This document shows positions 1,259 to 63,504 of a DNA stretch of 64,000 bases, piece by piece (within the stretch, counting starts at the first letter, position 1; each line of letters starts with the position of its first letter). The notes beneath the pieces are model-generated. The model was not told the origin of the DNA and searched no databases. It worked only from the letters and a program-made list of their open reading frames with translations. Origin of the DNA: Hyphomicrobiales bacterium. Its GTDB lineage: Bacteria > Pseudomonadota > Alphaproteobacteria > Parvibaculales > Parvibaculaceae. A program made the translations under genes and the position numbers. Location of the stretch: NCBI GenBank assembly GCA_016124805.1, contig WGND01000001.1:434001-498000 (forward strand). Direction: 5' to 3'.

Positions 1259-2521
1259 TCAGCCTGCCATCTTGTAACGGATGGGCAGGCGCTTGAGACC
1301 GCTTACGAAATTGGCCTGTGTGAAGGCAGGCGTTCCGTCCAGCTCAAAATGTTCAATGCGGGAAAGCAGTTCCTTGTAGAGCGTGCGGATTTCCATTTTC
1401 GCCAGATGTTGCCCGAGGCAGAGATGCGGGCCATAGCCGAAAGCAAGGTGCTTGTTGGGCTTGCGTTCGATGTCGAAGGTCTCCGGCTTGTCGAAGGCAT
1501 CTTCGTCCCGATTGGCAGACCAGTAGCACATGAGCAGATTGTCACCCGCCTTGATCTGCTGACCGTTGAGCATGTAGTCGCTCTTGGCGGTGCGGAAGAA
1601 ATTCTTCACAGGCGTTGACCAGCGGATCATCTCATCGACAGCACCCGGCAGCAGATCGGGATTGGCCCTGAGCTTGGCCATCTGGTCGGGATTTTCCATC
1701 AGGGCCAGCAACCCACCCGAGGTGGTGGAGCTTGTCGTGTCATGCCCGGCAGTTGCCACGATGATATAGTAGGAGATGGCTTCCAGGTGACCCAGCGGTT
1801 TGCCGTCGATGGTGGCATTGGCGATCACCGTCGCGACATCGTCGCGCGGATTTTTGCGCCGGTCTTCCACCATGGCGCTGAAATAGTTGAAGAAGTCTTC
1901 GACTGTCTTGCTGGTTTCATCGGCCGAATGTTCCTCGCGCTTCAGCTCCGGATCGGTGGCGCCGAAAAGTTCCTGCGTCAGTTTCAGCATGAAGGCTTCG
2001 TCTTCCGGCGGTACGCCCAGCACCGTCATGATGACGCGCAGCGGATACCAGACGGCGACATCATTGGCGAAATCGCATTTGCCATTCATGCCGGCCATAC
2101 GGTCGACATACATTTTGGCGAGGTCCCCGATATCGGCTTCCAGCTTTTTCAGATTGGGCGGGGCAAACCATGACTGGGTCAGCCCGCGATAGTTGCGATG
2201 ATCCGGATTGTCCATATCGACGAGAGAGCGGATCATGTGGCTGTCGCCGCCTGTAAAGCGCAGCACGGCTTCTTCCGTTTCGATGGTCTGCAGCGTCAGT
2301 CGGGGATCATTGAGGAAAATTTCGGGCTGGCGCTCGACTTCCATGATGTCGGCGTGCCGCGAGACGGTCCAGAAGGGGCGATAGTCGTCCGGCTGGGTCC
2401 AGCGCACCGGTTCCTCGCGGCGCAGACGTGCAAACAAGGCGTGAAAGGCTGCCGGATCTGCATAAAGTTTGGGGTCTGCAATGGCGTTGTCTGTCGCTTT
2501 GTCGCCGATTATGCGTTCCAT
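1259..2521 (-). CDS. Cytochrome P450 monooxygenase
   Basis: A soluble bacterial P450 of 420 residues. All hallmarks are present: the I-helix oxygen-binding motif AGHDTTSS, the K-helix ExxR motif (EMIR), and the heme-binding loop FGYGPHLCLGQ with the thiolate Cys at about residue 368. There is no membrane anchor, so it should need a separate ferredoxin and reductase, neither of which is adjacent. The start at 2521 (MERIIGDK) follows a GGGGAG; upstream in-frame starts would add a basic, unconserved-looking leader. The general fold suggests hydroxylation of a hydrophobic substrate such as a fatty acid, terpene or sterol side chain, but the CYP family cannot be assigned by eye. It faces the thiolase gene divergently, which fits a lipid-degradation setting (inference). 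Confidence 0.93.
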   Translation of the reverse strand: MERIIGDKATDNAIADPKLYADPAAFHALFARLRREEPVRWTQPDDYRPFWTVSRHADIMEVERQPEIFLNDPRLTLQTIETEEAVLRFTGGDSHMIRSLVDMDNPDHRNYRGLTQSWFAPPNLKKLEADIGDLAKMYVDRMAGMNGKCDFANDVAVWYPLRVIMTVLGVPPEDEAFMLKLTQELFGATDPELKREEHSADETSKTVEDFFNYFSAMVEDRRKNPRDDVATVIANATIDGKPLGHLEAISYYIIVATAGHDTTSSTTSGGLLALMENPDQMAKLRANPDLLPGAVDEMIRWSTPVKNFFRTAKSDYMLNGQQIKAGDNLLMCYWSANRDEDAFDKPETFDIERKPNKHLAFGYGPHLCLGQHLAKMEIRTLYKELLSRIEHFELDGTPAFTQANFVSGLKRLPIRYKMAG

Positions 2522-21990: not shown

Positions 21991-22605
21991 TTATTTCTTG
22001 GCCAGCGTTTCGAGCTGTTCCTGCATCAGCGCGATCTGCCGCTTGAGTTCATCAAGCTGGGCATCGGCATTTTCCTTTGGCGCAGCTGATGCGCCTTCCT
22101 TGTCCTCGGTGCTGCCTGATGACCCGCCTGAGCGCGGCACGAAGGGCGCAAACATGCGCATGGCACTGTCAAAGACGGACAGGTTCCGCTTGATCTGGTC
22201 TTCGAGCAGCGCCAGACGCTCCGTGCCCCCAAAGGCGGAACTCATGCGATGGCGCATTTTTTCCTGTTCCTTGGCGAACGTGTCCATGCTGAGTTCCAGA
22301 TAGGATGGCACAAAGCCCTGCAGGCTGTTGCCATAGAAGCCAATCAGCTGGCGGAGGAATTTGATAGGCAACAGGCTTTGGCCCTTCTTGTTTTCCTCTT
22401 CAAAAATGATCTGGGCCAGAACCGAACGGGTGATGTCCTCCCCTGTCTTGGCATCATGGACCGTGAATTCCTTGCCTTCTTTCACCATCTTGCAGAGATG
22501 ATCGAGTGTCACGTAGCTTGAAGTGGCGGTGTTATAAAGGCGCCGGTTGGCGTATTTCTTGATGACGATAACGTCGTCATCCGTTGAAGCGGTCTTTTTG
22601 GCCAC
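21991..22605 (-). CDS. phaR: PHB synthesis repressor PhaR
   Basis: A 204-residue protein with the PhaR N-terminal DNA-binding region (VIVIKKYANRRLYNTATSSYVTLDHLCKMVKEG, residues about 12-45), the PHB/DNA-binding accumulation regulatory repeats (LLPIKFLRQLIGFYGNSLQGFVPSYLELSM) and a charged C-terminal helix. In related bacteria PhaR represses phasin and PHB genes and is released by binding nascent PHB. It is divergent from phaA-phaB, as is common. TGC-rich elements in the shared region may be its own sites. Confidence 0.96.
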   Translation of the reverse strand: MAKKTASTDDDVIVIKKYANRRLYNTATSSYVTLDHLCKMVKEGKEFTVHDAKTGEDITRSVLAQIIFEEENKKGQSLLPIKFLRQLIGFYGNSLQGFVPSYLELSMDTFAKEQEKMRHRMSSAFGGTERLALLEDQIKRNLSVFDSAMRMFAPFVPRSGGSSGSTEDKEGASAAPKENADAQLDELKRQIALMQEQLETLAKK

Positions 22606-22787
22606 GCCTAATTCTCACTTGTTTCTAGGGACCGATCTTTGCCGGTCGCTGCGATAAATGGTCATGGTTCATGCCCGAACCGGCTGCCCCAGCCTTGCAT
22701 AGAGAGGCTTTGCGACAGCTTAAGAGCCCGGGCCTGTCATCTGAAGGTCATTCTGGGCCTGTCCTGCTGCATCGCGCAAGTCCCCGT

Positions 22788-22798
22788 TTGCACTGCAC
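22788..22798. promoter_or_regulatory. TTGC-N3-GCAC element between phaR and phaA (possible PhaR site)
   Basis: TTGC-ACT-GCAC is one base from the TTGC-N3-GCAA palindromes found between ccr and ecm. A second TGC-rich stretch (CTGCTGCATCGCGCAA) lies about 20 bp upstream. PhaR of Paracoccus and Rhodobacter is reported to bind TGC-rich or CTGC-N3-GCAG sites. Confidence 0.4.
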
Positions 22799-22892
22799 AG
22801 AAAGCCATTTGCTCCGGCCTGCCCTTGGCGTTAGGTTCGTTCAGCACAAAATTCTGCCTGTTCGAACAGGCCCCAAGCGAGGATTAATCAGC

Positions 22893-24083
22893 ATGAGCAA
22901 CCCTGCCACGCAAGTCGTTATCGTTGGCGCTGCCCGCACCCCTGTCGGGTCATTTAACGGCGCTTTTGCCTCCCTTCCCGCCCATGAACTGGGCCGCATT
23001 GCCATTGAAGGCGCGTTGGACCGCGCCGGTGTGGACAAGGCCAATGTGTCGGAAGTGATCCTGGGACAGGTTCTGCAGGCCGGACAGGGGCAGAACCCGG
23101 CCCGGCAGGCCGCCATCAATTCCGGCATGCCGGTTGAAGTGCCCGCCTGGGGCGTGAACCAGCTTTGTGGCTCGGGTCTGCGCAGTGTGGCGCTCGGCTA
23201 TCAGGCCATCCTCAATGGTGACAGCGATATCGTCGTCGCGGGTGGTCAGGAAAGCATGAGCATGGCGCCGCATGCGGCCCATCTGCGCTCCGGCAAGAAA
23301 ATGGGTGATCTGGAATTTGTCGACACCATGATCACGGACGGCCTCTGGGATGCGTTCAATGGCTATCATATGGGTCAGACGGCGGAAAATATCGCGGCGC
23401 GCTGGCAGCTTACACGCGCTGAACAGGACTCATTCGCCGTTGCCTCACAGAACAAGGCCGAAGCCGCGCAGACATCGGGTCGTTTCAAGGATGAAATCGT
23501 TCCGGTCACGATCAAGGGTCGCAAGGGCGATACCGTCATTTCCGAAGATGAATTCATCAAGCATGGTGTGACGATTGAAGGCATCAGCGGTCTCAAGCCT
23601 GCCTTCCAGCGTGAAGGCGGAACGGTGACAGCGGCCAATGCCAGCGGCATCAATGACGGTGCAGCCGCCGTTGTGCTCATGAGCGCGGACCGCGCGGCCA
23701 AGGAAGGCAAGAAGGTTCTGGCCCGCATCGTTTCCTGGGCGCAGGCCGGTGTTGATCCGGCCATCATGGGCACAGGCCCCATTCCGGCCTCGCGCGCGGC
23801 GCTGAAGAAAGCCGGCTGGAGTGTCGATGATCTTGATCTGGTTGAAGCCAATGAAGCCTTTGCGGCGCAGGCGCTCGCCGTGAACAAGGATCTCGGCTGG
23901 GATACGGCCAAGGTCAATGTGAATGGCGGTGCCATTGCCATCGGTCATCCGATCGGGGCGTCAGGCGCGCGCGTGCTTGTGACGCTGCTTCATGAAATGG
24001 AAAAGCGCGATGCCAAGAAGGGCCTTGCGACACTTTGCATCGGCGGCGGCATGGGCATTGCCATGTGCATAGAGCGGGATTAA
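22893..24083 (+). CDS. phaA: Acetyl-CoA acetyltransferase
   Basis: A 396-residue biosynthetic thiolase condensing two acetyl-CoA to acetoacetyl-CoA. Catalytic residues: Cys92 ([10 protein letters not shown]), His352 ([10 protein letters not shown]) and Cys382 (LCIGGGMG). [17 protein letters not shown] and [16 protein letters not shown] are classic PhaA features. Start at 22893 by homology, with GAGG 11 bases upstream. It is followed by phaB 77 bp downstream and divergent from phaR; feeds PHB synthesis and the EMC pathway. Confidence 0.96.
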
Positions 24084-24160
24084 TTGCAGACTGATTTTAT
24101 AATTGGAATGCCGGGCGGTTTAACGCATTGGCGACGACGGGAACCAGGACAGGGATTTTC

Positions 24161-24886
24161 ATGACACGGGTTGCTCTTGTAACGGGCGGGACGCGCGGTA
24201 TTGGCCACGCGATTTCGCTGGAACTGAAGGCGGCGGGCTACAAGGTTGCCGCCACCTATGCGGGCAATGATGAGGCGGCTGCCGCCTTTTCAAAGGAAAC
24301 GGGCATCGCGACCTATAAATGGAGCGTGGCGGATTATGATGAATGCGTCGCCGGTCTTGCCAAGGTCGAGGCGGATCTGGGTCCGATTGATGTGCTCGTC
24401 AACAATGCCGGCATCACGCGCGATGCCATGCTGCACAAGCTGACGCCCGTTCAGTGGCGTGAGGTGATCTCCACCAATCTCGATTCCATGTTCAATATGT
24501 GTCAGCCGATCATTGCAGGCATGCGGGATCGCGGCTTTGGCCGCATCATCAATATCTCTTCGATCAATGGTCAGAAGGGGCAGATGGGCCAGACCAATTA
24601 TTCCGCCGCCAAGGCAGGCGTGATTGGTTTCACCAAAGCGCTGGCGCAGGAAGTGGCTCGAAAAGGCGTGACGGTGAATTGCATTGCGCCGGGCTATATC
24701 AACACCGAAATGGTTGCCGCCGTACCGGAGAAGGTGCTGGAAAGCATCATCGCCTCGATCCCGGTGGGCCGTCTGGGCACGGGCGAGGAAATCGCCCATT
24801 GCGTGAAATTTCTGGCTGATGACAAGAGTGGCTTCATCACGGGCGCCACGATCACGGCCAATGGCGCGCAATATATCGCGGGCTAA
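24161..24886 (+). CDS. phaB: Acetoacetyl-CoA reductase
   Basis: A 241-residue SDR with cofactor loop TGGTRGIG and catalytic Ser134, Tyr147 and Lys151 (NISSINGQKGQMGQTNYSAAK). The sequence NGQKGQMGQTNY is diagnostic for PhaB rather than FabG. It reduces acetoacetyl-CoA to (R)-3-hydroxybutyryl-CoA with NADPH. ATG 24161 follows AGGG; upstream in-frame TTG is not needed. The phaA-phaB unit ends at a clear terminator; phaC is not in the window. Confidence 0.96.
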   Translation: MTRVALVTGGTRGIGHAISLELKAAGYKVAATYAGNDEAAAAFSKETGIATYKWSVADYDECVAGLAKVEADLGPIDVLVNNAGITRDAMLHKLTPVQWREVISTNLDSMFNMCQPIIAGMRDRGFGRIINISSINGQKGQMGQTNYSAAKAGVIGFTKALAQEVARKGVTVNCIAPGYINTEMVAAVPEKVLESIIASIPVGRLGTGEEIAHCVKFLADDKSGFITGATITANGAQYIAG

Positions 24887-54138: not shown

Positions 54139-54666
54139 TCAGACCTTGGCGAAGGGCAGCATGCGCTTGAGGACATTGTCCTTGAGGATGACGGCATGAT
54201 AGAGCGCGCCGGCGATATGCACCGCAACGAGGCCCGCGATCAGAAAACCATTAGCGCCATGCAGTGTCTCAAACACTTCATGAATTGTGTCGTTCTGTCC
54301 GATTTGCAAACCGAAAGTGCCAAAGACCATCAAATTATATTTGGATGAGGATGCCATCGCGAGGCCGAATATCGGCTGCAGGAAGATGCAGAGATAGAGC
54401 AGGTGATGGACGGCCTGCGAAAGAATTTCCTGCCAGCGTGGGCCGGAGACGCGGTGCGGGCGCGGGTTCAGGCGATTCCAGGTCAGCCAGATGATCATGA
54501 GGCCGAGCACGACAACGCCAATGCTGGCATGGGTGGTGACGGTTTCCTTGCTCAGCGTGAAGCCGCCATAAAGCATGAGACAAACGAGAATGGCGATGGT
54601 CCAGTGGAGCAATTTGCTGCCAGCTGAAAAACGACCCGTTACTTCTGTGGAAGTTGCATCTGTCAT
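54139..54666 (-). CDS. Cytochrome b561-family protein
   Basis: A 175-residue membrane protein with four helices and histidines in the b561 positions (LLHWTIAILV, THASIGVVVL, HHLLYLCIFL, VHIAGALYHAVI). It binds heme b and moves electrons across the inner membrane, perhaps from quinol to periplasmic acceptors. GAGGAG eight bases before ATG 54666. Immediately upstream of the adenosyltransferase; a role in reducing the cobalamin is tempting but untested. Confidence 0.88.
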   Translation of the reverse strand: MTDATSTEVTGRFSAGSKLLHWTIAILVCLMLYGGFTLSKETVTTHASIGVVVLGLMIIWLTWNRLNPRPHRVSGPRWQEILSQAVHHLLYLCIFLQPIFGLAMASSSKYNLMVFGTFGLQIGQNDTIHEVFETLHGANGFLIAGLVAVHIAGALYHAVILKDNVLKRMLPFAKV

Positions 54667-55757: not shown

Positions 55758-57446
55758 CTAATTGGCGCTGTCGAGCAGACGGCGGGCAATGACCTGCGCC
55801 TGAATTTCAGCCGCACCCTCGAAAATATTCAGGATGCGCGCATCACATAGCACACGGCTGACCGGATATTCGAGGGCAAAGCCGTTGCCGCCATGAATCT
55901 GAAGCGCATTGTCGGCGGCCGCCCAGGCCACACGGGCAGCCAGCAGTTTCGCCATACCGGCTTCCAGATCGCAGCGACGGCCACCGTCTTTTTCGCGGGC
56001 AGCGAAATAGGTGATCTGGCGCGCCACCATGATTTCGACCGCCATCATGACGAGCTTGCCGTTGACCCGCGGGAAGCTGAAGAGCGGCTTGCCGAACTGG
56101 ACGCGTTCCTGCGCATAGCGCAGTCCCAGCTCCAAGGCGGACTGGGCCACGCCGACGGCGCGGGCGGCTGTCTGGATGCGGGCTGACTCAAAGGTCTGCA
56201 TCAGCTGCTTGAAGCCCTGGCCTTCCTCGCCGCCAAGAAGGTTTTCGGCCTTCACTTCAAAATCATCAAAGCCGATTTCAAATTCCTTCATGCCGCGATA
56301 GCCGAGTACTTCGATCTCGCCGCCGCTCATGCCTTTTGCTGGGAAGGGGTCGGCATCATCACCGCGAGGCTTTTCAGCCAGCAGCATGGAAAGCCCCTTA
56401 TAGCCGGGCTCGTCATTGGTCCGGCAAAGCAGGGTCATGACATCGGCACGCGCCGCATGGGTGATCCATGTCTTGTTGCCATTGATCCTGTAGACATTGC
56501 CGTCGCGCTTGCCGCGTGTGCGCAGGCTGGCCAGATCCGAGCCCGTATTGGGTTCGGTAAAGACGGCTGTTGGCAGCACTTCGCCACTGGCAATAAGCGG
56601 CAGCCAATGCGCTTTCTGTTCCGGCGTGCCGCCGCCAAGAATGAGTTCGGCTGCGATTTCGGACCGGGTGCCGAGCGAGCCGACGCCGATATAGCCGCGT
56701 GAAAGCTCCTCGGAAACGACGCACATCGATTCCTTGCCGAGACCGAGCCCGCCAAATTCTTCCGGGATCGTCAGGCCGAAGACACCGAGTTCGGCCATCT
56801 GCGAGACAACGGTGAGCGGGATATATTCGTCCTTGAGGTGCCATTCATGTGCATCGGGCATGACTTCGGCATCGGCAAAGCGGCGCATCTGGTCACGGAT
56901 CGCGTCATATGTCTCTTCAAGGCCGGTATCGCCAAAGGTAGCGGCGCCTGCCTGTTCGGCAATGAGGGCGGCCAGTCTGGCGCGTGCAAGGGCGGTGTTG
57001 CCATTGCGGACAAGCGTGAGCACAGCCTCGGTGTGGAAGGCTTTCTCATCAACCTCGCCCAGCCCCATATCTCTGGGACGGAGGATTTCGCCCTGACTCA
57101 TGGGAATGCCGCCCGTGATCTGGGTGAGATATTCGCCAAAGGCGATTTGCACGATGATCTGTTCCATCTCGCCAAGGCGACCTTCCGCGCTCATGCGGTC
57201 GGCATAGGCTGAGAGCTGGCGCAGCGCTTCGACATAGGTTGCCAGCCAGGCAAGGCCATGCACGGCGAATTGTTCGCGCTCAAGGGCCGCTGAGGACATC
57301 TTGCCACCGGTCGTCACTTTGGCGGCAACCTGCGATTTGGCGGTTGTCAGCAGACGATCGGCCGCACTCACAGCCTCGCGGGACAAATCCAGCAGGCCGG
57401 GCAGAATGACCGCATCATTAGTGGGGACTTCGGTTGCAAGGCTCAT
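55758..57446 (-). CDS. mcd: Methylsuccinyl-CoA dehydrogenase
   Basis: A 562-residue acyl-CoA dehydrogenase, longer than ordinary family members by about 170 N-terminal residues, which is the known architecture of Mcd of the EMC pathway. The core has TEPNTGSDLASLRTRG, GNKTWITHA, FESARIQTAARAVGVAQSALE and the C-terminal LQIHGGNGFALEYPVSRVLCDARILNIFEGAAEIQ. It oxidises (2S)-methylsuccinyl-CoA to mesaconyl-CoA and hands electrons to ETF. Other EMC genes (ccr, ecm) lie 2.5-4 kb downstream; assignment rests on length and context. Confidence 0.9.
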   Translation of the reverse strand: MSLATEVPTNDAVILPGLLDLSREAVSAADRLLTTAKSQVAAKVTTGGKMSSAALEREQFAVHGLAWLATYVEALRQLSAYADRMSAEGRLGEMEQIIVQIAFGEYLTQITGGIPMSQGEILRPRDMGLGEVDEKAFHTEAVLTLVRNGNTALARARLAALIAEQAGAATFGDTGLEETYDAIRDQMRRFADAEVMPDAHEWHLKDEYIPLTVVSQMAELGVFGLTIPEEFGGLGLGKESMCVVSEELSRGYIGVGSLGTRSEIAAELILGGGTPEQKAHWLPLIASGEVLPTAVFTEPNTGSDLASLRTRGKRDGNVYRINGNKTWITHAARADVMTLLCRTNDEPGYKGLSMLLAEKPRGDDADPFPAKGMSGGEIEVLGYRGMKEFEIGFDDFEVKAENLLGGEEGQGFKQLMQTFESARIQTAARAVGVAQSALELGLRYAQERVQFGKPLFSFPRVNGKLVMMAVEIMVARQITYFAAREKDGGRRCDLEAGMAKLLAARVAWAAADNALQIHGGNGFALEYPVSRVLCDARILNIFEGAAEIQAQVIARRLLDSAN

Positions 57447-59920: not shown

Positions 59921-59943
59921 CCGGCAGCCTTAACGGCTGCCGG
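59921..59943 (-). terminator. Hairpin spanning the ccr stop codon
   Basis: CCGGCAGCC and GGCTGCCGG form a 9-bp stem with the ccr TAA stop codon in the 5-nt loop. The stretch after it on the minus strand is not a clear U-run, so it is a terminator-like or mRNA-stability structure. Confidence 0.55.
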
Positions 59944-61219
59944 CTTCGATCGCGTCTTCAAATGTGCGCAGGCCGGGGCGCTTGGCCGAAACCAGCACGG
60001 CCATGTTGCCGGGGGCATGCTCATTGCGCCACATCATCATGTGGGATTTGGGGATGTCATCCCATGAGAAGACTTCCGACATGCCGGGATCAATGCGTCG
60101 TTCAATGACGAGCTGATTGGCCGCTGAGGCCTGCTTGAGATGGGCAAAATGCGAGCCCTGAATGCGCTTCTGGCGCATCCAGACAAAGCGGGCATCAAAG
60201 GTCAGGTTGAAGCCGCTGGTGCCGGCGCAGAAAACCACCATGCCGCCGCGCTTGGCGACCATGCAGGAGACGGGGAAGGTCATTTCGCCGGGATGTTCAA
60301 AGACGATATCGGGATCGATCCCCTTGCCGGTGATATCCCAGATGGCCTTGCCGAATTTGCGTGCTTCTTTCATGAATTCATTGAACTCGGCGGAATTCAC
60401 CTTGGGCAATTGTCCCCAGCAATCGAAATTCTTGCGGTTGATGACGCCGCGCGCGCCCATCGACATGACGAAGTCATGCTTGCTGTCATCGGAAATGACG
60501 CCGATGGCGTGGGCGCCTGCCGTGGCGCAGAGCTGCACGGCAAAGGAGCCGAGGCCGCCTGAGGCGCCCCAGACGAGCACATTCTGGCCGGGCTGGATGA
60601 TATGCGGGGCATGGCCGAAAAGCATGCGATAGGCAGTGGCGAGCGTCAGCGTGTAGCAGGCGCTTTCTTCCCAGGTCAGATGCTTGGGGCGGGGCATGAG
60701 CTGTTGCGACTGGACGCGGCAGAACTGGGCAAAGGAGCCGTCGGGTGTTTCATAGCCCCAGATGCGCTGGGTGGGCGAGAACATCGGGTCGCCACCATTG
60801 CATTCCTCGTCGTCGCCATCATCCTGATTGCAGTGGATGACAACTTCATCGCCAACCTTCCAGCGCTTCACCTTCGAGCCGACGGCCCAGACGATGCCTG
60901 AGGCATCTGACCCGGCGATGTGATAGGGCACGGAATGAACATCGAAAACGGAAATGGGTGAGCCGAGGGCAGCCCAGACGCCGTTGTAATTGACGCCGGC
61001 GGCCATGACGAGCACGAGCACTTCGTTGGAATCGATCTCCCAGGTCGGCACGACTTCCACCTGCATGGCCTGCTCGGGCGGCCCGTGACGGTCGCGGCGA
61101 ATGGCCCAGGCATACATGTTCTTTGGAACATGGCCCAATGGCGGAATTTCACCGATCTCATAGAGATCCTTCTTGGGGAGCGGGCTATCAATGATGGCCG
61201 CTGCGCTCGTCTGACTCAT
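59930..61219 (-). CDS. ccr: Crotonyl-CoA carboxylase/reductase
   Basis: A 429-residue medium-chain dehydrogenase/reductase-family enzyme that reductively carboxylates crotonyl-CoA to (2S)-ethylmalonyl-CoA with NADPH and CO2. Features: NMYAWAIRRDRHGPP, the MDR-type cofactor loop LVWGASGGLGSFAVQL, CNQDDGDDEECNGGDPMFSPTQRIWGYETPDGSF (diagnostic Ccr insert) and FEHPGEMTFPVSCMVAKRGGMVVFCAGTSGFNL. Key EMC-pathway enzyme; divergent from ecm, with TTGC-N3-GCAA palindromes between them. Confidence 0.97.
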   Translation of the reverse strand: MSQTSAAAIIDSPLPKKDLYEIGEIPPLGHVPKNMYAWAIRRDRHGPPEQAMQVEVVPTWEIDSNEVLVLVMAAGVNYNGVWAALGSPISVFDVHSVPYHIAGSDASGIVWAVGSKVKRWKVGDEVVIHCNQDDGDDEECNGGDPMFSPTQRIWGYETPDGSFAQFCRVQSQQLMPRPKHLTWEESACYTLTLATAYRMLFGHAPHIIQPGQNVLVWGASGGLGSFAVQLCATAGAHAIGVISDDSKHDFVMSMGARGVINRKNFDCWGQLPKVNSAEFNEFMKEARKFGKAIWDITGKGIDPDIVFEHPGEMTFPVSCMVAKRGGMVVFCAGTSGFNLTFDARFVWMRQKRIQGSHFAHLKQASAANQLVIERRIDPGMSEVFSWDDIPKSHMMMWRNEHAPGNMAVLVSAKRPGLRTFEDAIEAGSR

Positions 61220-61311
61220 CTTCTCATTCCTTGCTCGTCACCATGCTTTGGACGGGGTGACGGTGACTTTTCGGGATGATTGGCGCTTGCCTGCCGAGAT
61301 GCAAGATTTTT

Positions 61312-61322
61312 TTGCACCGCAA
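61312..61322. promoter_or_regulatory. TTGC-N3-GCAA palindrome between ccr and ecm, copy 1
   Basis: TTGC-ACC-GCAA in the context TTTTTTGCACCGCAACA. 93 bp upstream of the ccr start. Repeated at 61418-61428 in the same orientation with matching flanks. A TGCAA (61300-61304) seven bases before its TTGCA adds a further half-site. Confidence 0.55.
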
Positions 61323-61417
61323 CATTTAATGTTCCCGATCATAAACCGAGGAGTCGCCGCAACGGAAGCGGCTGCCTCCAAAGAACTTGAAGGACCCACG
61401 GGTTTTCTTAGGGCTTT

Positions 61418-61428
61418 TTGCGTCGCAA
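61418..61428. promoter_or_regulatory. TTGC-N3-GCAA palindrome between ccr and ecm, copy 2
   Basis: TTGC-GTC-GCAA in the context CTTTTTGCGTCGCAACA, 66 bp before the ecm start. Shares TTTTTGC-N3-GCAACA with copy 1, 106 bp away (about ten helical turns). Confidence 0.55.
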
Positions 61429-61494
61429 CAATGGCTGTAACATGGTTTTCTTCGGGTGCAGCTCCGCACCAAAGCAGCCAAAGGCACAGGGTTC

Positions 61495-63504
61495 ATGACG
61501 GTCAAAGACGAAAAATCCGGGAACACGGGCACCACTCACAAGGCAGACCAGCCCTGGATTTTCCGAACCTATGCGGGGCATTCGACGGCCAAGGCGTCCA
61601 ACGAGCTTTATCGCACCAATCTTTCGCGTGGCCAGACGGGGCTCTCGGTCGCCTTCGATCTGCCGACCCAGACCGGTTATGATTCAGATCATGTGCTGGC
61701 ACGCGGCGAGGTTGGCAAGGTGGGCGTGCCGATTTCCCATATTGGCGACATGCGCGCGCTGTTCCACGACATTCCGCTCGAAAAGATGAATACCTCGATG
61801 ACGATCAATGCGACGGCGGCCTGGCTGCTGGCGCTTTACATCGCGGTGGCAGATGAGCAGGGGGCGGACCGCGCCAAGCTGTCGGGCACCGTGCAGAATG
61901 ACATCATCAAGGAATATCTGTCGCGCGGGACCTATGTGTTTCCGCCGGAGCCTTCCATGCGCCTCATCACCGACATTGTGTCCTACACTTATACCCAGGT
62001 TCCCAAATGGAACCCGACCAATGTTTGCTCCTACCATCTGCAGGAAGCCGGTGCGACGCCGGTGCAGGAACTGGCCTTTGCGCTTGCCACAGCCTGCGCC
62101 GTGCTTGATCACGTGAAGGCGGGCGGGCAAGTGCCGGCAGAAGAATTTGGCAAGGTTGTCGGGCGTATATCCTTCTTCGTGAATGCCGGTGTGCGTTTCG
62201 TCACCGAGATTTGCAAGATGCGCGCCTTCGTGGATCTGTGGAGCGAAATTTGCCGCGAGCGCTATGGCGTGACCGACGAGAAGCTGTCGCGTTTCCGCTA
62301 TGGCGTGCAGGTGAACTCGCTGGGCCTCACCGAGCAGCAACCGGAAAACAATGTCTATCGCATCCTTATCGAGATGCTGGCCGTGACGCTCTCCAAAGGC
62401 GCGCGGGCGCGGGCCGTGCAATTGCCTGCATGGAACGAAGCGCTCGGCCTGCCGCGTCCCTGGGACCAGCAGTGGAGCCTGCGTGCACAGCAAATTCTCG
62501 CTTATGAAACCGACCTTCTTGAATATGGCGACATCTTTGATGGCAGCCATGTGATGGATGCACGTGTCGAAGAACTGAAGAACGAAGCTCGCGAGGAACT
62601 GCAGCGCATTGAGGCGATGGGTGGCGCTGTGGCTGCTGTTGAATCGGCTTACATGAAACAGAAGCTTGTGGAATCAAACTCGCTGCGACTGGCAGGCATT
62701 GAAGCCGGGCGTCAGGTTGTGGTCGGTGTCAACAAATATGAAGAGTCAGCACCTTCGCCGCTGGCAACCGGGGCAGGCTCCATTCATGTCGTTGAGAGCC
62801 ATGTTGAGGAAGCCCAGATCAAGAGCCTTGAAGCCTGGCGCGCCAAGCGCGACGACAAGGCGGTGGCCGATGCCCTTGCCGGTCTCAAGGCGGCCGCCAA
62901 GAGCGGTGAAAATATTATGGAGCCTTCGATCATTTGCGCCAAGGCAGGTGTGACAACTGGCGAATGGGGCACGGCGCTGCGCGAGATCTTCGGTGAGTAT
63001 CGTGCGCCAACGGGTGTTTCGAAATCGGCGCGCAATGATGCCGGTGACCTTGACGAAGTCCGTGCGCTGGTTGATGCGGTGTCGAGCAAGCTGGGCCGTC
63101 GCATGAAGTTCCTTGTTGGCAAACCCGGTCTTGACGGCCATTCAAACGGCGCCGAACAGATCGCCGTGCGCGCGCGTGATTGCGGCATGGAAGTCGTTTA
63201 TGAGGGCATTCGCCTGACGCCGGCCCAGATCGTCAATGCCGCCCTTGAAGAGGGTGTGCATGTGGTGGGGCTCTCGATTCTCTCCGGCTCGCATGTGCCG
63301 CTTGTCACAGATGTGCTTGAGCGCATGAAGGAGGCCGGCATTGGCGATATCCCGCTTATCGTCGGCGGGATTATTCCGCCCGAAGATGAAGAGCTGCTGG
63401 TGAAGGCCGGCGTGGCGGCGGTCTATACGCCCAAGGATTTCCAGATCACGGATATCATGGCCGACATTTGCCGCATCGTGGATTACTCGGAAGAGGCGGC
63501 TTGA
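61495..63504 (+). CDS. ecm: Ethylmalonyl-CoA mutase
   Basis: A 669-residue B12-dependent mutase converting (2R)-ethylmalonyl-CoA to (2S)-methylsuccinyl-CoA. The TIM-barrel part carries QPWIFRTYAGHSTAKASNELYRTNLSRGQTGLSVAFDLPTQTGYDSDH, and the C-terminal cobalamin domain has Asp547 and His549 in GLDGHSNGAE (DxHxxG). Length and sequence differ from methylmalonyl-CoA mutase large subunits and fit Ecm. ATG 61495 is favoured by homology. Divergent from ccr. Confidence 0.95.
   Translation: MTVKDEKSGNTGTTHKADQPWIFRTYAGHSTAKASNELYRTNLSRGQTGLSVAFDLPTQTGYDSDHVLARGEVGKVGVPISHIGDMRALFHDIPLEKMNTSMTINATAAWLLALYIAVADEQGADRAKLSGTVQNDIIKEYLSRGTYVFPPEPSMRLITDIVSYTYTQVPKWNPTNVCSYHLQEAGATPVQELAFALATACAVLDHVKAGGQVPAEEFGKVVGRISFFVNAGVRFVTEICKMRAFVDLWSEICRERYGVTDEKLSRFRYGVQVNSLGLTEQQPENNVYRILIEMLAVTLSKGARARAVQLPAWNEALGLPRPWDQQWSLRAQQILAYETDLLEYGDIFDGSHVMDARVEELKNEAREELQRIEAMGGAVAAVESAYMKQKLVESNSLRLAGIEAGRQVVVGVNKYEESAPSPLATGAGSIHVVESHVEEAQIKSLEAWRAKRDDKAVADALAGLKAAAKSGENIMEPSIICAKAGVTTGEWGTALREIFGEYRAPTGVSKSARNDAGDLDEVRALVDAVSSKLGRRMKFLVGKPGLDGHSNGAEQIAVRARDCGMEVVYEGIRLTPAQIVNAALEEGVHVVGLSILSGSHVPLVTDVLERMKEAGIGDIPLIVGGIIPPEDEELLVKAGVAAVYTPKDFQITDIMADICRIVDYSEEAA

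Follow-up and report, generated by a model that had tools for sequence, protein, structure and literature searches.

Paired PhaR-like sites between the divergent ccr and ecm genes suggest that PHB storage controls the EMC pathway

Which regulator acts between ccr and ecm, two divergent genes of the ethylmalonyl-CoA (EMC) pathway, and to which signal does it respond? We addressed this question in a 64-kb stretch of DNA from a Hyphomicrobiales bacterium (hereafter the window). The inducer of the EMC pathway is stated to be unknown in PMC10370305, and because its upregulator is so described there, a candidate found at this locus deserves testing.

The ccr gene (59930..61219, minus strand) encodes a crotonyl-CoA carboxylase/reductase of 429 aa (Pfam ADH_N and ADH_zinc_N), which is 92% identical to the ccr product of a Rhodobiaceae MAG and 90% identical to that of Parvibaculum indicum. 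On the plus strand, ecm (61495..63504) encodes an ethylmalonyl-CoA mutase of 669 aa counted from the ATG at 61495 (MM_CoA_mutase and B12-binding domains); an in-frame GTG lies upstream at 61456. The other mutase match of the genome (contig C17, 51822-53735) is 40% identical to the ecm product. The start codons of the two genes are separated by 275 bp. As the preliminary description had reported, these divergent EMC genes flank the palindromes TTGC-ACC-GCAA (61312-61322) and TTGC-GTC-GCAA (61418-61428). The two are 106 bp apart from start to start and share the longer flanks TTTTTGC-N3-GCAACA. The one-base variant TTGC-ACT-GCAC (22788-22798) was likewise located between phaR and the phaA thiolase gene. 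We designate the 21 bp TTTTTTTGCACCGCAACATTT on the ccr side candidate operator 1 (61307..61327, unstranded; core TGC-ACC-GCA at 61313-61321) and the 21 bp GCTTTTTGCGTCGCAACAATG on the ecm side candidate operator 2 (61413..61433, unstranded; core TGC-GTC-GCA at 61419-61427). Both contain the YGC-RNY-GCR core of the PhaR box, and the RNY spacer is shared with the phaR-phaA site.

The bare palindrome TTGC-N3-GCAA was rejected as a regulon marker. It occurred at chance level in the window (3 against 3.21 expected) and was too loose genome-wide, with 60 places over 3.21 Mb against 23 for a reversed control. The armless core TGC-RNY-GCA was not enriched in the window (8 against 16.3 expected). The informative motif is the TGC-RNY-GCA core plus AT-rich arms, i.e. 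the published PhaR box, rather than the bare palindrome. To score it, we used a symmetric 21-bp matrix for which 24 S. meliloti sites in promoters shifted by PhaR were the sole source (Table 3 of PMC12542648, efficient or weak shifts; the assays used promoter fragments). Four exoH sites were excluded because the table is silent on which of the four is bound. None of the training sites lies at a ccr gene, and their own scores ranged from 13.6 to 27.4.

Operator 1 received the top score of the window (24.4) and operator 2 the second (15.8); both carry the AT-rich arms of the box. The phaR-phaA site ranked third (13.7), and the next best site reached 10.2. The third TTGC-N3-GCAA match of the window (55515, spacer AAA) scored 4.0, and TGCACCGCA at 54218, near a cobalamin adenosyltransferase gene, was discarded as a PhaR-like site at a score of only 2.6. 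Under a third-order Markov null (64 kb, 40 runs), the best score averaged 14.4 with a maximum of 18.5, and 1.2 sites scored at least 13.5. The score of operator 1 exceeds chance by itself; operator 2 alone is within the chance range for 64 kb. Operator 2 is notable because some 1.2 chance sites of at least 13.5 per 64 kb correspond to about 0.005 in the gap, and because it is conserved. The case for it and for the phaR-phaA site is thus strengthened by where they lie and by their conservation and does not depend on score alone. The R. eutropha consensus YTKNTGCRNYGCANMAR was fitted by operator 2 at 17 of 17 positions and by operator 1 at 16 of 17.

In agreement with the preliminary description, PhaR is encoded in the window itself; the distance to the ccr-ecm gap is 39 kb. 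The gene for this PHB-responsive repressor (21991..22605, minus strand; 204 aa) has matches to PF07879 (1.5e-30) and PF05233 (1.2e-18); none of the solved structures resembles the protein by sequence. The weaker PhaR-like site between phaR and phaA, found in the matrix scan (22783..22803, unstranded), has a poorer neighbour at 22762-22782 (score 9.1). Read from its first ATG, the phaA thiolase ORF spans 22671..24083 on the plus strand (Pfam). Its thiolase domain begins at residue 82, which places the true start probably near 22900. A phaB-like short-chain dehydrogenase gene (Pfam) occupies 24128..24886 on the same strand.

Phasin genes are classical PhaR targets, and the motif was found at two of them in the same genome. 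The pattern TDNTGCRNYGCANHA occurred at 25 places genome-wide against 3 in the reversed control, a generous control in that reversal alters trinucleotides. Two of these places are the ccr-ecm sites. A pair 51 bp apart (C5:67833 and 67884) precedes a Phasin_2 gene (L136:2166-2486). A second pair, 52 bp apart (C14:233389 and 233441), is situated 35 bp before another Phasin_2 gene (L129:1491-1952), downstream of phaC and of a hydrolase gene. Eleven of the 23 places beyond the ccr-ecm gap fell inside ORFs of a crude call, and part of the places may well be due to chance. The ORF that contains the two places preceding the L129 phasin gene is antisense and probably spurious, and one place, in locus L134, lies ahead of a probable start codon.

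The expectation that the motif would cluster upstream of pathway genes was borne out for the phasin genes and failed for phaC (minus strand, L311:9995 to 8316), mcl and mch, none of which has a site upstream. The same applies to mcd, a probable methylsuccinyl-CoA dehydrogenase gene (55758..57446, minus strand; acyl-CoA dehydrogenase domains), for which the best score in the 354 bp upstream was 4.9; mcd and mcl were named from Pfam domains and place. Among the EMC genes examined in this genome, ccr and ecm are the ones with sites. The siteless phaC leaves the odds on PhaR unaffected, because the phasin genes are the stronger positive control.

Several further PhaR-like sites of this genome were recorded. 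One (L293:719-739, i.e. C1:56718-56738; score 19.7) lies 55 bp before the gene for cytochrome bd oxidase subunit I, and through it PhaR might touch respiration. A strong pair (L135:2287-2307 and 2349-2369; 21.5 and 22.5) precedes an unannotated ORF of 73 aa (1957-2178, minus strand) with a hydrophobic C-terminal stretch and no Pfam match, a candidate small granule- or membrane-linked protein. The top score among the own-genome loci examined (24.7) belongs to L018:1411, which is followed 88 bp away by a site at 1499 (15.0; C12 near 245498). These two lie between a small protein gene and an apparent tsaD, and the equivalent place in L123 has no Rfam match. By analogy with mmgR in S. meliloti, they could mark a small RNA or a short gene. 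A site at L131:2060-2080 (21.8) is just ahead of a gene whose patatin-like DUF3734 product may be a hydrolase linked to PHB. Rfam gave no RNA at four own-genome loci bearing PhaR-like sites.

Comparison within the window's family pointed to one site per promoter. Matches to ccr were found in 35 of 40 genomes and to ecm in 38 of 40, and 30 loci of each were analysed. A site scoring at least 12 was present upstream of ccr in 29 of 30 loci (own genome included) and upstream of ecm in 27 loci of another set of 30. The distance between the ccr and ecm sites varied in relatives from about 70 to more than 1100 bp. Where the genes are 599-1237 bp apart (L144, L153 and L164), each retains its own site; where they are about 100 bp apart (three loci), a single site is left for both. 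Since each gene keeps a site at long gaps and one remains at about 100 bp, the arrangement suggests one operator per promoter, not a pair dependent on fixed spacing.

A generic sigma-70 scan found no promoter, and promoters were therefore read from the family alignments. The predicted ccr promoter (61276..61304, minus strand) consists of a -35 element TTGCAT (61304-61299), 17 bp and a -10 element AATCAT (61281-61276). The sequence TTGC[A/G/T]T-N17-AATGAT follows the ccr site in 23 of 30 family loci, a count that omits the window's own AATCAT, and this conservation makes the promoter assignment likely. From the centre of the ccr site to the first T of the -35 element, the distance is 13 bp in 24 of the 29 family loci with a site, as it is at operator 1. 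For ecm, the comparison predicts a -10 element TAACAT with TG upstream (61438..61443, plus strand). Of the 27 family loci in which ecm has a site, 18 show TGTGATAAT at a fixed distance behind it when matched exactly; in the window itself, the element has one base fewer and does not match this pattern. Operator 1 is thus predicted to be centred at about -48 of the ccr promoter, abutting the -35 element, and operator 2 about 27 bp upstream of the ecm +1, between -35 and -10.

Conservation extended well beyond the family. We took the best-scoring 80 other Ccr-encoding loci, which are not independent (43 clusters at 90% and 25 at 85% Ccr identity), and scanned 350 bp upstream of ccr. The core TGC-RNY-GCA was present in 47 of 80 loci, against a mean of 4.6 (sd 1.9, largest 11) in 300 first-order resamplings, and TGC-N3-GCA was the commonest of 704 gapped palindromes. 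The second in this ranking, TGC-N6-GCA (41 of 80), was set aside: it coincides in part with sites of PhaR type (TGC-RNY-GCA-GCA), and its Rhodobacterales occurrences are the leader TTCTGC-RNY-GCGGCA. The density of TGC-RNY-GCA was 1.7/kb before ccr, 0.16/kb further upstream and 0.31/kb within ccr. Ratios of RNY to YNR spacers were 52:4, 25:17 and 27:0 for the same three regions; because the coding sequence also gave 27:0, the RNY bias is by itself no proof.

Matrix scores of at least 14 were reached before ccr in 51 of 80 loci, compared with 0.9% in resampled sequence and 1.9% in 625 other segments of the same loci. After collapse at 85% Ccr identity, 19 of 25 clusters had such a score. A further 18 of 80 loci scored from 5 to 14, about two thirds of them Rhodobacterales. 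With the cut-off set at the 97% control quantile, the true matrix found 42 of 80 loci, and 100 column-permuted matrices found 5.0 on average and 21 at most. At the threshold of 14, sites preceded 26 of 30 phasin genes, 18 of 30 ecm genes and 8 of 30 mcd genes, against 9 of 234 upstream gaps of other genes from the same loci, a control that may itself hold a few true targets. The span scanned was 450 bp for phasins and 350 bp for the others. The phasin, ecm and mcd counts come from 32 genomes chosen from the 50 searched for PhaR, three of which belong to the 11 whose ccr has no site, with 30 of 33 mcd, 30 of 32 ecm and 30 of 65 phasin matches scored; 2 ecm and 2 mcd loci belong to the window's family.

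The presence of PhaR was uninformative as a predictor of the ccr site, since 48 of the 50 genomes searched (covering 50 of the 80 ccr loci) encode it. Two MAGs, perhaps incomplete, have a ccr site and no PhaR match (L061 and L083). Among plasmid-collection records, 12 of 34 matches were examined. Six of the seven ccr genes from outside the Rhodobacterales (Rhizobium, Bradyrhizobium, Burkholderia, Rhodococcus and Streptomyces) scored 8.5 or less; that of Rhodococcus M8-35 reached 14.5 with no intact core.

In Rhodobacterales the site takes a different form within the ccr leader. Of 17 loci examined, 16 have TTCTGC-NNN-GC, its centre 26-47 bp ahead of the ccr ATG; 16 of the 17 were chosen by title (15 match) and L080 was chosen for its leader. 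The exception, L108, reads TCCTGC instead of TTCTGC. The 16 leaders contain 10 kinds of spacer, all RNY. TTCTGC-RNY-GC also occurs in all five named Rhodobacterales records examined from the plasmid collection (three Paracoccus, Ruegeria and Tritonibacter). The P. denitrificans leader reads GATTCTGC-GCT-GCGG (score 11.7), and those of Ruegeria and Tritonibacter contain the full CTGC-N3-GCAG. A constant frame around a free RNY spacer is the trace that a dimer-binding protein would be expected to leave, in species that are related and thus not independent. Among L299 and the Rhodobacterales ccr loci, many have a second element, roughly AATATTGCGC, some 30-45 bp farther upstream than the TTCTGC leader; it is perhaps part of the ccr promoter.

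Eleven of the 80 ccr loci were siteless (scores below 5): five of Methylocystis type, four of Methylobacterium/Methylorubrum, one Methyloceanibacter and one other alphaproteobacterium. All 11 genomes encode PhaR. A ccr site was present in four other Methylobacterium species and in another Methyloceanibacter. In many methylotrophs, which lack the site, the EMC pathway serves C1 growth, and a siteless ccr fits different control there without proving it.

The sequence itself provides the motif, its agreement with tested PhaR sites, its occurrence ahead of two phasin genes of the same genome and its conservation before ccr and ecm. On these grounds the proposal of PhaR as a plausible regulator, made in the preliminary description, gains support, and we consider it very likely that PhaR binds both sites. 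That PhaR represses ccr and ecm and is released by PHB is also likely, with repression rather than activation less certain than binding. Published work establishes that PhaR acts as a repressor and is sequestered by PHB granules (PMC12542648). Operator 1 would serve the ccr promoter and operator 2 the ecm promoter, and free PhaR would hold down both when PHB is absent. With a surplus of acetyl-CoA, PHB granules would grow and take up PhaR, releasing ccr and ecm together with the phasin genes. Crotonyl-CoA and PHB have acetoacetyl-CoA and 3-hydroxybutyryl-CoA as common precursors, so the granule is a sensible signal of acetyl-CoA surplus; by reporting it, the granule would open the EMC route at the crotonyl-CoA branch point.

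Some observations count against this model. They include the siteless ccr genes of 11 genomes that encode PhaR, the two MAGs with a site and no PhaR match, the lack of sites at four genes of this genome (phaC, mcl, mch, mcd) and the pattern places inside ORFs. In R. rubrum, PhaR was down (0.44-fold, p 0.01) and Ccr was not up (0.64-fold, p 0.14), as reported in PMC7109303.

The direction of control could also be reversed. If PhaR bound both sites, activated ccr and repressed or co-activated ecm, titration by granules would lower the EMC pathway and favour storage. The strict 13-bp spacing between operator and -35 element at ccr could reflect contact with RNA polymerase, one box for both repression and activation has been proposed for B. 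diazoefficiens PhaR (PMC10888616), and S. meliloti has activated modules. However, the S. meliloti motif is enriched in module 1, the repressed genes, and occurs in only seven activated genes (PMC12542648). The ecm site occupies a blocking position between the predicted -35 and -10 elements, and in Rhodobacterales the site, 26-47 bp before the ccr ATG, is probably near or past the transcription start, as placed by inference. Operator position at ecm and in Rhodobacterales thus favours blocking, and we regard activation as unlikely. Chance matches without function in an AT-rich intergenic region are the least probable account. TTGC-N3-GCAA is at chance level in the window and a score like that of operator 2 can arise randomly in 64 kb, but chance does not explain conservation before ccr and ecm relative to the resampled, permuted-matrix and other-gene controls, nor that within the family.

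A different protein might bind the palindromes. The preliminary description named a RamB/ScfR-type regulator as its main alternative, and this has weakened. ScfR proteins are sensors of short-chain acyl-CoAs, and the genome has a single match (L293 3357-4826), so that a RamB-, PccR- or MccR-type protein sensing an acyl-CoA could be imagined here. However, that gene is divergent to those for malate synthase and isocitrate lyase, the arrangement of P. denitrificans RamB; because the sole ScfR found adjoins these genes, RamB is unlikely. The box of other ScfR classes, TTTGCAAA, is absent from the window's ccr-ecm gap, 1 of the 80 ccr upstream regions contains it, and the motif matches tested PhaR sites instead. 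RamB is the driver of the glyoxylate cycle in P. denitrificans, where EMC expression rises when ramB or icl is lost and the RamB motif has two boxes with an 18-bp spacer (PMC10370305). This class 2 layout of near-identical boxes differs from palindromes 106 bp apart. Deletion of the other two ScfRs tested in that organism left reporter patterns unchanged (PMC10370305). Overall, an ScfR protein at these sites appears highly improbable. Another regulator with a PhaR-like palindrome, such as a TetR protein like CcrR, is improbable too. CcrR activates an EMC gene in M. extorquens (as cited in PMC10370305), but such a protein would have to match the arms, core and spacer rule of the sites preceding 26 of 30 phasin genes, and four of eight loci from Methylobacterium/Methylorubrum, the group of CcrR, have no site.

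If PhaR does act here as a repressor released by PHB, one switch would be common to a storage polymer and to the assimilation route with which it competes for precursor. The acetate induction of the EMC pathway, called enigmatic in 2023, would be explained by the granule as a sensor of acetyl-CoA surplus. Whether a PHB-titrated PhaR is an old and widely kept switch for EMC entry in Alphaproteobacteria, including Paracoccus and Rhodobacter relatives, is in our estimate evenly balanced. The sites point to PhaR as a candidate regulator, to PHB granules as its signal and to the exact bases for mutation, also in P. denitrificans, for which a ccr-mCherry reporter strain exists (PMC10370305). Such control, if true, would be relevant to the engineering of PHB producers and of EMC-derived acids. 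PhaR control of ccr or ecm was not found in titles and abstract openings of the open-licence papers surveyed; an earlier report is possible. A part for M. extorquens PhaR in acetyl-CoA flux was already on record (Korotkova 2002, as cited in PMC6520949), and broad changes in a phaR mutant are reported in PMC6520949, the main text of which does not contain the term ccr.

Among known systems, the closest likeness is to the PhaR (AniA) box of S. meliloti, WNWD2NYGCRNYGCRNH2WNW, with the same YGC-RNY-GCR core, AT-rich arms and two copies at phasin promoters; it also occurs at the central-carbon genes gltA, ppdK and zwf (PMC12542648). As at the phaR-phaA site pair here, S. meliloti phaR/phbAB has two weak sites, shifted only at the highest PhaR amount. 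Unlike the present case, the main text of that paper contains none of the terms ethylmalonyl, crotonyl and methylmalonyl. The R. eutropha PhaR sites of phaP1 and phaP3 have the form that operators 1 and 2 match, although their targets are phasin genes (PMC12849132). Work cited in PMC12542648 and PMC10888616 gives CTGCNNNGCAG as the PhaR site of R. sphaeroides and a TGC-rich region for this species and for P. denitrificans. The TGC-N3-GCA core is alike in the window, where T rather than C precedes TGC; CTGC-N3-GCAG is whole in the Ruegeria and Tritonibacter leaders, whereas P. denitrificans and the remaining element-bearing Rhodobacterales ccr leaders have GCGG in the second half. The RamB operator of the P. 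denitrificans glyoxylate-cycle operon also concerns acetyl-CoA assimilation (PMC10370305). It pairs two boxes across 18 bp, in contrast to the separate palindromes here, one per gene. Like P. denitrificans, this genome combines glyoxylate-cycle genes and a ramB-like ScfR gene (L293:3357-7001) with the genes of the EMC pathway.
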